This document shows positions 15,111-21,944 of a DNA stretch of 64,000 nucleotides, piece by piece. Each line of letters opens with the position of its first letter. The stretch's first letter is position 1. The translations under genes were made by a program, and so were the position numbers. The notes beneath the pieces were generated by a model. It did no database searches. It was not told the DNA's origin and worked only from the letters and a program-made list of their open reading frames with translations. Origin of the DNA: Levilinea saccharolytica (GTDB taxonomy: Bacteria > Chloroflexota > Anaerolineae > Anaerolineales > Anaerolineaceae); contig NZ_LGCM01000046.1 in NCBI RefSeq assembly GCF_001306035.1, forward strand, positions 1 to 64,000, given 5' to 3'.

Positions 15111-16322
15111 TTACAGGCCGGCCGCCGCGCGCAGCGCCGCCGCCTTGTTGGTGCGTTCCCAGCTCAAATCCAGGTCGTCGCGCCCAAAGTGGCCGTAGGC
15201 CGCCGTCTGGCGGTAAATGGGCTTGCGCAGATCCAGATCGTGGATGATGGCGCCGGGGCGCAGGTCAAAGTGCTGACCGACCAGCTCGGCGATCTTCTCA
15301 TCCGGGATCAGGCCCGTGCCGAAAGTTTCCACGTTGATGCTCAGGGGGCGCGCCACACCGATGGCGTAAGCCACCTGGATCTCGCAGCGTTCCGCCAGGC
15401 CCGCCGCCACGATGTTCTTGGCCGCCCACCGCGCCGCATACGCGCCGGAGCGGTCCACCTTCGTCGGGTCCTTGCCCGAGAAAGCCCCGCCGCCGTGACG
15501 GCCCATGCCGCCGTAGGTGTCCACGATGATCTTGCGGCCGGTCACGCCCGCATCGCCCATCGGGCCGCCAATCACAAAGCGGCCGGTGGGGTTGACGAAG
15601 ATCTTCATGCCGCCGTCCACCATCTCAGCGGGGATCACGGGGTTAATCACATGCTCAATCACGCCCGCGCGGATCTCTTCCTGGCTGACTTCCGGAGCGT
15701 GCTGAGTGCTGATCAGCACCGTATCCACGCGCACGGGTTTGCCGTACTGGTATTCCACCGTCACCTGCGATTTGCCGTCCGGGCGCAGCCACGGCAGGGT
15801 GCCGTTCTTGCGCACTTCGGTCAGGCGGCGGGTGAGGTTGTGGGCCAGATAAATGGGCATGGGCATCAGGGTGGGGGTTTCGTTGCAGGCATAGCCAAAC
15901 ATCATGCCCTGATCCCCCGCGCCGACCGCTTCGATCTCGGCTTCGGTCATCTGCCCGGCTTTGGCTTCCATGGCCTTATCCACGCCCATGGCGATGTCGC
16001 CGGACTGGTTGGCAATGGCCACCTGCACGGCGCAGGTGTTGGCGTCAAAGCCCTTGATGGAGTTGTCGTAACCGATCTCGCGCACCACATCGCGCACCAG
16101 GCGGTCAAAATCCACAAAGCCGCGGGTGGTGATCTCGCCCAAAACCATCACAAAGCCGGTCTTAGTGGCGGTTTCGCAGGCCACGCGCGAATAGGGGTCC
16201 TGCGCCAGGCAGGCGTCCAGCACCGCATCCGAAACCTGGTCGCAGAGCTTGTCCGGGTGCCCTTCGGTGACCGATTCAGAAGTGAACAGGTACTTGGGGG
16301 AGTTCATAAAGGTGTTGTTCAT
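15111..16322 (-). CDS. metK: S-adenosylmethionine synthetase
   Basis: This 403-aa protein matches MetK over full length: [20 protein letters not shown] (ATP-binding His), [12 protein letters not shown] (about 137), [20 protein letters not shown] (phosphate loop) and the C-terminal YGHFGR. It makes SAM from methionine and ATP in the cytoplasm. The start is ATG 16322 with AAAAGGAG 9 bases upstream. Expression is controlled by a SAM-I riboswitch with its own promoter and terminator in the 200-base leader, a direct product-feedback design. Confidence 0.97.
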
Positions 16323-16393: not shown

Positions 16394-16493
16394 CTCCTAT
16401 CTCCCAGATTGTTCCTGTCGGAATTGGCACCTTGGCGATTGCCAGGTTGCCGAGGCTTCATAGGGCCGGTCCCTCCGCCTCTCTGGATAAGAG
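16394..16493 (-). promoter_or_regulatory. SAM-I (S-box) riboswitch aptamer
   Basis: The minus strand shows the S-box signature in order: CTCTTATC, AGAGAGGCGGAGGGACCGGC, CCTATGAAGCCTCGGCAACC, then AAGGTGCCAATTCC and GATAGGAG, which closes helix P1 with CTCTTATC. The conserved core and spacing fit SAM-I riboswitches, which bind SAM and terminate transcription. Its target here is metK. Confidence 0.95.
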
Positions 16494-20009: not shown

Positions 20010-21944
20010 ATGAAGAAGATCAACGCCCACCCCCTTGGAAGACAGCTTTGGGCCGTCCTTTTGGCCGCGGCCCTGCTGCTCAGCCCTACCGCGCCGGTGA
20101 CCGCCGCCGAACCCACCAACGGCCCCACACCCGCCCTGGCTGCGGATGTGAACGAAGGCGCGCCCAGCTCCGCCCCCAATCAGCTCGCTGCAATTGGCTC
20201 CACCTTGTTTTTCACCGCCGATGACGATGAATACGGCCAGGAACTGTGGCGCATCAGCCCGCCCTACACCCAGGCCTTCCGCGTCAGCGACATCAACCCC
20301 GCGGAAGGCAGCGCCCGGCCGGAATACATCACAGCGGTGGGGGATACCCTCTTCTTCCGCGCCGATGACGGCACCCACGGGTACGAGCTGTGGCGCAGCC
20401 AGCCGCCCTACACCAGCGCCGAGATGGTCACCGACCTGAACCCCGGCGCCGAAGGCTCCCTCCCCCATGAACTGACCCCCGTGGGCAGCGCCCTGTTCTT
20501 CGCGGCCAACGACGGCAGCAGCGGCACCGAGCTGTGGAAAACCGAATCGCCCTTCACCAGCGCCGTGCGCGTGGCCGATATCGCCGTCGGCCCTCCGGGG
20601 TCCAACCCCGATGAACTCACCCGCAACGGCTGGATCCTGCTCTTCAGCGCGGATGACACCCAGGGGCGCGAGCTGTGGAAATGCACCCCGCCCTACATCA
20701 ACACCTGCGAAATGGTCTCGGATGTGAACGCAGCGGGCAACGCCAACGTCAAAGAACTGACCTTCGTCAAAGACATCCTCTTCTTCACCGCCAACGACGG
20801 GGAATACGGTCAGGAATTGTGGATGAGCGAATCGCCCTACAACGTGCTGACCACGCGGGCGGTCAACGATTTCAGCACACGCTCCTACAACACCTATCCT
20901 TCTGACCTGCATGCCATCGGCGACACCCTCTTCTATACTGCCTCTATCGGTTTCATCGGCATGGAGCCCTGGAAAGTCGTCCCTCCCTACGGCAAAACCC
21001 AGATGACGCGCGTGGCCGATATCAACAGCACCATGTTTTTCATGGGCTCCTTCCCCTACGGCAAAATTTCCATCGGCGAGACCCTCTTCTTCATCGCCAA
21101 TGACGCCAAGTACGGCTTTGAGTTGTGGAAAAGCGTGCCCCCCTATGACGACGACAGCACCAAGCGCATCAGCGGCATCCGCGCCGGCATGGGCACGGGC
21201 GACATTCAGGAATTAACCGCAGCAGGCTCGGTGCTGTTCTTCACCGCCGATGACGGCAAGCATGGGCGCGAGCTGTGGAGAAGCGTCCCGCCCTATACCG
21301 ATGTCGAATTGGTGAAAGACTTGAACGGCGGTGCGGCCTCTTCCAACCCCGAAGCGCTCACCGCCCTGGGCGACAGCCTGTTCTTTGCCGCCAACGACGG
21401 CAGGAAAGGCATCGAGCTGTGGAAAGTGAGCAACAGCTTCAGCCTGCCGGCCAGCGGCTTTGCCCCCGCGCGCTTCACCCCCCGCGCCGGCCAGCCCGCC
21501 GCCTTGCAGCAGGTGGACGACTTGGTGCTGGAAATCCCCAAACTCGGCCAGACTCTCCCCATCGTGGGTGTGCCCTACGCTCAGGATCAATGGGACCTCA
21601 CCTGGTTGGGCAGCCAGGCCGGGTATCTGGAAGGCAGCGCCTACCCCACCTGGAACGGCAACACCGTCCTCACCGCCCACGCGGCCCTTTCCAATGGGCA
21701 GGATGGGCCGTTTGCGCGCCTGAGTGAGCTGCGCTGGGGCGATTCCATCGTCATCCACGCCAACGGCCAGCGCTTCCTCTACGAAGTGCGCACCGTTGAG
21801 CAGGTGGATCCTCAGGACGCTTCCGTTTTCGAGCACGAAGAGCTGGACTGGCTGACCCTGCTGACCTGCGCCCAATATGACCCGGCCTCCGACCGTTATC
21901 TCACCCGGCTGGCGGTGCGCGCCGTGCGCGTGGGTTTGCAGTAA
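20010..21944 (+). CDS. Secreted ELW-repeat protein with C-terminal sortase domain
   Basis: This 644-aa protein has a signal peptide (residues 1-32, ending TAPVTAA). Residues about 45-480 form nine ELW-type repeats of about 45-50 residues: LFFTADD..G-x-ELW..PPYT..V-x-DIN (one copy reads EPW). This family is related to the ELWxxDGT hyper-repeats, probably a beta-propeller. Residues about 505-640 are a sortase domain: LEIPKLGQTLPIVGV, His557 in TAHAALS, Cys620 in TLLTCAQYD and Arg633 in TRLAVRAV, the catalytic triad layout of class E/D-like sortases. No C-terminal anchor is seen. Strong AGGGAGG site 10 bases before the ATG. A transpeptidase carrying its own binding or propeller module is inferred; its substrate is unknown. 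Confidence 0.85.
   Translation: MKKINAHPLGRQLWAVLLAAALLLSPTAPVTAAEPTNGPTPALAADVNEGAPSSAPNQLAAIGSTLFFTADDDEYGQELWRISPPYTQAFRVSDINPAEGSARPEYITAVGDTLFFRADDGTHGYELWRSQPPYTSAEMVTDLNPGAEGSLPHELTPVGSALFFAANDGSSGTELWKTESPFTSAVRVADIAVGPPGSNPDELTRNGWILLFSADDTQGRELWKCTPPYINTCEMVSDVNAAGNANVKELTFVKDILFFTANDGEYGQELWMSESPYNVLTTRAVNDFSTRSYNTYPSDLHAIGDTLFYTASIGFIGMEPWKVVPPYGKTQMTRVADINSTMFFMGSFPYGKISIGETLFFIANDAKYGFELWKSVPPYDDDSTKRISGIRAGMGTGDIQELTAAGSVLFFTADDGKHGRELWRSVPPYTDVELVKDLNGGAASSNPEALTALGDSLFFAANDGRKGIELWKVSNSFSLPASGFAPARFTPRAGQPAALQQVDDLVLEIPKLGQTLPIVGVPYAQDQWDLTWLGSQAGYLEGSAYPTWNGNTVLTAHAALSNGQDGPFARLSELRWGDSIVIHANGQRFLYEVRTVEQVDPQDASVFEHEELDWLTLLTCAQYDPASDRYLTRLAVRAVRVGLQ

Follow-up and report, generated by a model that had tools for sequence, protein, structure and literature searches.

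A C-terminal sortase behind its own LPxTG-like motif: a candidate self-processing tail of large Anaerolineales proteins

Introduction

Known sortases act in trans on many substrates. In Levilinea saccharolytica, a single open reading frame (20010..21944, + strand, of the 64,000-nucleotide stretch of DNA analysed here, referred to as the window) encodes a 644-aa protein composed of a putative signal peptide, a predicted nine-repeat propeller, the hexapeptide LPASGF, a linker and a sortase, which raises the question of what a sortase does at the end of a large secreted repeat protein. A first-pass annotation of this DNA had answered with a possible secreted transpeptidase with built-in target binding, and had overlooked the main feature of the protein, namely the sorting motif LPASGF directly N-terminal of the sortase. 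Based on the conservation, distribution and predicted structure of this motif and its enzyme, we lean, by somewhat more than an even chance, towards the C-terminal 160–170 residues being a portable self-processing module that would use its own upstream LPxT-G as a cis substrate and pass the cargo to an amine.

Results

Architecture of the 644-aa protein

The chain starts with a cleavable-looking signal peptide as judged by eye (residues 1–33, MKK...VTAA; 20010..20108, +), where the full-length AF2 model has a helix at residues 9–23 at low pLDDT. The putative cargo follows, consisting of nine ELWxxDGT repeats (residues 38–474; 20121..21431, +) that were identified with NCBIfam model TIGR04534 (E 1.5e-82, 271.5 bits against a cut-off of 65, nine stretches) and are predicted by AF2 and VIA-align to form a nine-bladed beta-propeller. 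The eight ELW and one EPW counted in the first-pass annotation were all recovered, at residues 78, 126, 174, 221, 269, 319 (EPW), 371, 421 and 469. Next comes LPASGF (residues 479–484; 21444..21461, +), an in-cis LPxTG-like motif by its conservation, with Ser482-Gly483 as the expected scissile bond, and then a linker of near-constant length (residues 485–504; 21462..21521, +) in which the alignment revealed T490, Q495 and P496 to be conserved, together with a Tyr that is L499 in this protein.

The sortase domain (residues 505–644; 21522..21941, +) was recognised by sequence and fold matches to PDB entries and by Pfam model PF04203 (residues 507–640, E 8.3e-22, 77.7 bits against 26.6), bearing out the earlier assignment. 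By these matches the tail is a member of the sortase superfamily, and enzymatic activity is ascribed to it by homology. His557 (21678..21680, +), the nucleophile Cys620 (21867..21869, +) and Arg633 (21906..21908, +), all catalytic by homology, stand where they had been placed at first pass, and the three columns are invariant in the 75 aligned tails described below (alignment A3); the conservation of the Cys among homologues, by which the annotation had proposed to be judged, thus holds in 75 of 75, and likewise that of His and Arg. A C-terminal anchor is absent, as had been stated, since the last predicted barrel strand of the full-length model (residues 629–643) closes the chain.

An orthologue of the propeller-sortase protein with 95% identity was found (L110). 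Five genes around the propeller-sortase gene were scanned, coding for an Rce1-like protease, a TetR regulator, a HAD hydrolase, a metallo-beta-lactamase-fold protein and an N_BRCA1_IG protein; no pilin gene was among these five. Elsewhere in the window, a SAM riboswitch (RF00162, 89.4 bits; 16394–16493, −) lies directly upstream of a gene at 15111–16322 that is metK-like by sequence inspection.

Occurrence of the sortase tail

A whole-protein search of 61 related genomes returned at least ten near-full-length matches in 9 of the 61, with E below 1e-149, one of them with an internal stop. Among the matches listed at E ≤1e-35, those restricted to the C-terminus begin at residue 443–479, mostly at 469–479, and lie on frames of up to 4021 aa; the exception among those listed is a 118-aa broken copy in which the match begins at residue 527. 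The retrieved loci were rescanned with query residues 501–644, leaving out the motif, and places scoring at least 80 bits were kept. Of the resulting 75 tail places, 73 have an LPxTG-like motif 21–24 residues ahead of the domain, 60 of the 73 being strict LPxTG, and the remaining two are cut or masked ahead of the motif site.

An independent scan of GTDB species genomes relied on the pattern WD[LV][TS]WL.. within the sortase, which is independent of the motif. Among the best 80 of 152 relatives (79 loci), the motif was present in 82 of 82 tails (63 strict LPxTG), with a spacing to the query start of 21–25 aa in 81 tails and of 42 in one. In the same best 80 of 152, both ends of the frame are closed for 46 tails, and 43 of these frames span 651–3165 aa. 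The three shorter ones measure 197, 352 and 487 aa; the 352-aa frame seems to be severed from its upstream part, and the passenger of the 487-aa frame opens with a signal-like stretch. The 197-aa closed frame (L184, 2113–2703, +) contains motif and sortase with nearly no passenger.

The carriers among these best 80 of 152 relatives are labelled Chloroflexota, mostly Anaerolineae, Anaerolineales or plain Chloroflexi, and cultured carriers include Ornatilinea apprima, Leptolinea tardivitalis and Pelolinea submarina. Outlying labels are Dehalococcoidia (L141) and an Acidithiobacillus MAG (L133), the latter probably reflecting a binning error. In a phylum sample of 151 genomes, 13 matched at 1e-25, of which 11 belong to the same order, including a 169-aa frame without the motif end (G169), and two to another family. 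The sortases of these two (L293 and L294, in G074 and G062) stand alone, have a membrane helix by eye and lack the motif; they are close to the tail family and are possible relatives of its ancestor. On a 180-kb plasmid of the Chloroflexota strain ZRK35 (CP069395.1, L296), a DUF11 protein with a sortase tail adjoins a heliorhodopsin gene.

Conservation of the motif

In the 75 tails, the motif columns contain Leu in 61, Pro in 75, Thr in 69 and Ser in six, Gly in 75 and Phe in 75, followed by Ala in 65 and Pro in 68, so that the form in relatives reads L/I/M/V-P-x-T/S-G-F. LPASGF itself has Ser rather than Thr ahead of the Gly, as do six of the 75 rows. The position x is occupied by Ala (23), Asp (11), Ser (10) and others, its entropy of 3.05 bits exceeding that of 156 of the 178 columns, and the positions immediately N-terminal of the motif are variable. 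Within the linker, Thr is found in 74 tails, Gln in 62, Pro in 56 of 73 and Tyr in 72. The fixed positions of the motif and the catalytic residues being invariant in the same 75 rows, the motif and the enzyme have been kept together. With Pro, Thr/Ser and Gly fixed and x free, the pattern is that of a sortase substrate; in a plain structural segment there would be no cause for just x to be free.

When Phe/Tyr was demanded after the Gly, the motif was found at the junction in about 142 of 144 tails (143 of 145 with slightly different duplicate removal), and the two tails without it (L081, L082) have a contig end or X-masked sequence ahead of the motif site. Outside the junction, this form of the motif did not occur once in 157,355 passenger residues, and the form without the Phe/Tyr demand occurred 70 times, i.e. 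0.022 per 50 residues. Chance occurrence of the motif at the junction is ruled out by this comparison.

Two tails depart from the single motif. In L034 (G043; tail 1495–2034, −), the motif and linker (LPSTGFRHGEVTQLPKQPA) are tandemly duplicated ahead of the sortase, and in L062 two LPxTGF follow each other. The extra cut site in tails of the L034 type might allow two rounds of processing.

Passengers of the tail

The Levilinea genome contains four tails, on the propeller protein and on proteins of 649, 1968 and 3608 aa. The domain content of passengers was determined for six proteins, five of them being tails. No Pfam match was obtained N-terminal of the sortase in the 649-aa protein; the 1968-aa protein has Big_12 and HYDIN-like Ig domains and the 3608-aa protein has DUF11. 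Elsewhere, the tail was found on a 921-aa beta-helix protein of Pelolinea submarina (L182) and on a 714-aa protein without other Pfam matches (L141).

A role of the propeller as the targeting domain of the sortase was considered and is disfavoured, the same tail occurring on DUF11, Big_12 and beta-helix proteins and the near-full-length matches numbering at least ten in 9 of the 61 genomes. Since the domain content varies, a single targeting role of the passengers is unlikely, and the passenger looks like the cargo of the enzyme. Of the first-pass picture of a secreted transpeptidase, the propeller, the sortase with its catalytic residues and the missing anchor all stand, but built-in target binding fits poorly, because the propeller is one of several passenger kinds and an LPxTG-like motif lies between passenger and enzyme.

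Predicted structure of the tail

The full-length AF2 model (10 rows) has a mean pLDDT of 79.9. In VIA-align, its residues 38–474 match the designed nine-bladed propeller 6tjh (Cake9; Z 23.7, 341 aligned, rmsd 3.7) and its C-terminus matches sortases; pLDDT is below 50 at residues 476–483 and 485–502. A model of the tail (residues 467–644, 75 rows, AF2) reached a pLDDT of 87.1, with 75 in the ten-residue block of the motif, 42 in the preceding block and 66 and 69 in the two following ones. The fold predicted for the tail is that of a sortase, the best PDB matches among those listed by Foldseek being sortases of classes C, A and E, mostly C, at E ~1e-10. The top VIA-align match is 3tbe_C (Z 18.2, 143 aligned, rmsd 2.7), tied with rows within 1 Z that include classes A and E.

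Among 50 VIA-align rows, for which the class labels are in part our assumption, 18 are class C or C. diphtheriae pilin sortases, and 16 of the 18 begin at model residue 1–12, covering the motif; lid-type rows that do not reach it are 4d7w (start 31) and the lid mutant 6bwe (start 30). Of the other 32 rows, 31 begin at 25–36, and the class A entry 2kw8 begins at 9 and reaches the motif. Using the ends of the alignment ranges, assuming a gapless start and taking the lid numbering from passages of PMC3166054 and PMC3493515, Pro480 (model residue 14) falls on the lid residues Pro85 of 4g1h, Pro50 of 3rbk and Pro59 of 2w1j; in 4g1j its counterpart is residue 91, flanked by the lid residues Asp90 and Tyr92. 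As passages of PMC3493515 describe the class C lid to overlay the LPxTG peptide, the tail model puts the motif at the substrate site, and its predicted seat is the lid/substrate groove. The docked register is tentative, because the motif region has a pLDDT below 50 in the full-length model and the VIA-align start moves by 2–3 residues between the full-length and the tail model.

The same placement would also suit a motif that acts as a lid and nothing else, i.e. a class C-like pseudo-substrate plug silencing a secreted transpeptidase until a target bound by the passenger is met, which comes closest to the first-pass annotation. Passages of PMC3493515 portray class C lids as pseudo-substrates restricting access, and the best sequence and fold matches of the tail are mostly class C. 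However, the lid motif of class C is DP(W/F/Y) according to passages of PMC3166054 and PMC3493515, whereas in the tails the Thr/Ser-Gly flanking the scissile bond is invariant and x is free, as in a substrate, and the diversity of the scanned passengers speaks against the single targeting role that such a plug would call for. We consider a lid function by itself quite unlikely.

Fused and unfused sortases

In the Levilinea genome and 12 relatives, 67 PF04203 places were classed by open frame, with fused sortases defined as those on frames of at least 400 aa. The motif was present in 35 of 35 fused sortases and in none of the 32 others. It lies at most 50 aa upstream of the Pfam match in 34 of the 35 and slightly further in L224 (IPDTGY), where the Pfam match starts late. 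The Levilinea sortase on contig C45, with a 922-aa open frame, was classed as alone by hand, its counterpart in G001 being a 317-aa frame, and one of the 32 unfused rows is a 118-aa fragment of a broken tail, interrupted by a stop. Fused sortases are absent from G057, one of the 13 genomes. Unfused sortases were detected in all 13 genomes, one of them on a 299–345 aa frame in each of the 12 relatives.

In a tree of 79 sortase domains (the 13 genomes and some more), all 53 motif-bearing domains are gathered on the same side of a single branch (100/99, the bootstrap being unsettled). Forming one clade, they make the split of 35 against 0 the record of one evolutionary event, so that the tail family arose once, then spread widely and was long retained, and the 35 do not count as separate events.

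G045, from a more distant lineage of the same order, contains two long frames, of 2418 and 2230 aa, that end in a sortase and lack the junction motif, the 2418-aa frame having been examined at its end. The sortases of G045 (L084, L085) score below 80 bits and are outside the tail set; several have very long linkers, many are on one contig and several have an N-terminal membrane helix. On the minus strand of L004 in the Levilinea genome, a sortase-like 233-aa frame that ends in an LQTC motif and is not among the PF04203 matches adjoins an unfused 256-aa sortase; its PVVQQPA stretch recurs in a weak match of G005 (L229).

Ordinary sorting signals, for which the first-pass annotation had suggested a search, were looked for in the Levilinea genome with an LPxTGF DNA pattern. 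Of 13 matches, three are tails and one is an ordinary anchor protein (L102, G000:C10, 946–1620, +) of 224 aa with N- and C-terminal membrane helices by eye, ending in LPNTGF, a helix and RRLR; no second protein with such an ordinary sorting signal was found in the Levilinea genome. Ends of the same kind (motif, membrane helix and arginines) were also recognised in L234, L264 and L271 of the genomes G047, G014 and G030. L234 (G047) was obtained through the DNA pattern and reading, 15 of 19 pattern matches having been inspected in G047 and 15 of 16 in G018, and L264 and L271 through a text pattern in 30 sub-threshold PF00746 loci. PF00746 exceeded its cut-off in none of the 13 genomes and missed L102, L234, L264 and L271; its silence is therefore no evidence, and the anchor counts are lower bounds.

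With unfused sortases in 13 of 13 genomes, including the 299–345 aa frame of each of the 12 relatives, and with the same LPxTGF in ordinary anchors, the motif of the tail could be processed in trans. Cutting of LPxTGF and anchoring of the cargo would then fall to a distinct sortase in the membrane or to a second copy of the tail enzyme, the fused sortase being a by-product or serving other substrates. Yet, no membrane helix with a charged end follows the motif in the tail, and the near-constant spacing between motif and sortase, the conserved linker and the strict co-occurrence of motif and fused enzyme in the 13 genomes would be odd unless the cis enzyme uses the motif. Processing in trans is, in our estimate, rather unlikely.

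Class membership

TIGR01076 scored 58.2 bits against a cut-off of 39.35 and is matched by 75 of 75 tails at E 1e-5. The NCBIfam class models all stayed below their cut-offs, with 59.7 against 160 bits for class C (NF033745; 63.5 for the tail alone), 50.0 against 165 for class D (48.6 against 140 for the SrtD exception model), 40.0 against 160 for class E, 33.4 against 166 for class F and 30.5 against 158.25 for class GN. Membership of class C, D, E, F or GN was rejected on these grounds and, by that test, the tail is outside the described classes. Class C sortases have a C-terminal membrane anchor and lie in pilin gene clusters. No such anchor is present here and no pilin gene was found among the five neighbours scanned, nor is there a DP(W/F/Y) lid, LPxTGF standing in its stead. 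As for the traits of LPXTG wall anchors, the motif is present, with Ser for Thr, but not the membrane helix and positive charges behind it.

The polymerising class C sortases being closest in sequence and fold, the tail might join its cargo to a lysine or the amino end of the next copy and so build fibres without a pilus gene cluster. The class models are far under their cut-offs, and we hold such self-polymerisation to be very improbable.

Discussion

From an architecture that is conserved and occurs behind varied cargoes, we infer cleavage, action in cis and the nature of the acceptor as follows. The signal peptide would export the protein and the sortase would fold outside the cell. Cys620 would then attack the protein's own upstream Ser482-Gly483 (Thr-Gly in most relatives), giving a thioester between the enzyme and the new C-terminus of the cargo (...LPAS). 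A surface amine, supplied by a wall peptide or by the lysine or amino end of a second protein, would take the cargo, and the sortase would be left with a new Gly-Phe-Ala-Pro N-terminus. Such a route would make do without a membrane-anchored sortase and without the membrane-spanning charged C-terminus that substrates usually have. The distance of ~20 residues should permit the attack in cis.

Self-cleavage in cis is supported by engineered SrtA-LPETG-target fusions, which have the opposite order and, according to passages on BISOP in PMC2901362, self-cleave to 20 to 40% during synthesis. The cis reading is further supported by the use of LPxTGF as an ordinary signal in the same lineage (L102, L234, L264, L271). 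It is weakened by the two long fused frames without the motif in G045, by the tails forming one clade, and by the Ser in place of Thr in the 644-aa protein.

For the order as a whole, we regard it as an evenly poised proposition that large surface proteins of Anaerolineales reach display through a single-chain mechanism, in which each has a disposable sortase that cuts its own LPxT-G in cis and delivers the cargo to the surface or onto the following copy, acting as a natural single-use self-sorting tag that dispenses with both membrane-anchored sortase and sorting-signal anchor. If this reading is true, cutting and surface attachment of the protein may both be its own work, with no second enzyme of the usual kind, and the clade would possess a self-contained natural means of display, perhaps of single turnover. 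The way in which a large, mostly uncultured order keeps giant repeat proteins on its surface could then be explained, and environmental bacteria could become a source of ready-made self-cleaving tags.

Comparison with known systems

The literature searched, which was largely open-access and covered mostly at the level of title and abstract, yielded no account of a sortase that naturally has an LPXTG in cis. The parts are known, and it is the arrangement, a natural sortase bearing what looks like its own sorting signal, that was not found in print.

BISOP, like the tail, has enzyme and LPxTG substrate in one chain; as described in passages of PMC2901362, it is man-made for purification or labelling and has the order sortase-LPETG-target, whereas the order here is cargo-LPxTG-sortase. 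The 'substrate-fused sortase reagent' of Amer et al., as cited in a passage of PMC5148588, is likewise man-made. With the class C sortases SrtC1 and SrtC2 of GBS and SrtC1 of S. pneumoniae, the tail shares the barrel with His, Cys and Arg and, in the predicted tail model, an N-terminal segment in the groove at the place of the motif; it differs in having LPxTGF where those have the DP(W/F/Y) lid, and in the large secreted cargo ahead of it. LPXTG wall-anchored proteins (PF00746) are also secreted and have an LPxTG-like motif near the C-terminus, but end in a membrane helix and charged residues where the tail has a sortase domain. Finally, the protein resembles ELWxxDGT proteins (TIGR04534) in its nine repeats, which score far above the cut-off, and is set apart from them by the sortase tail behind the repeats.
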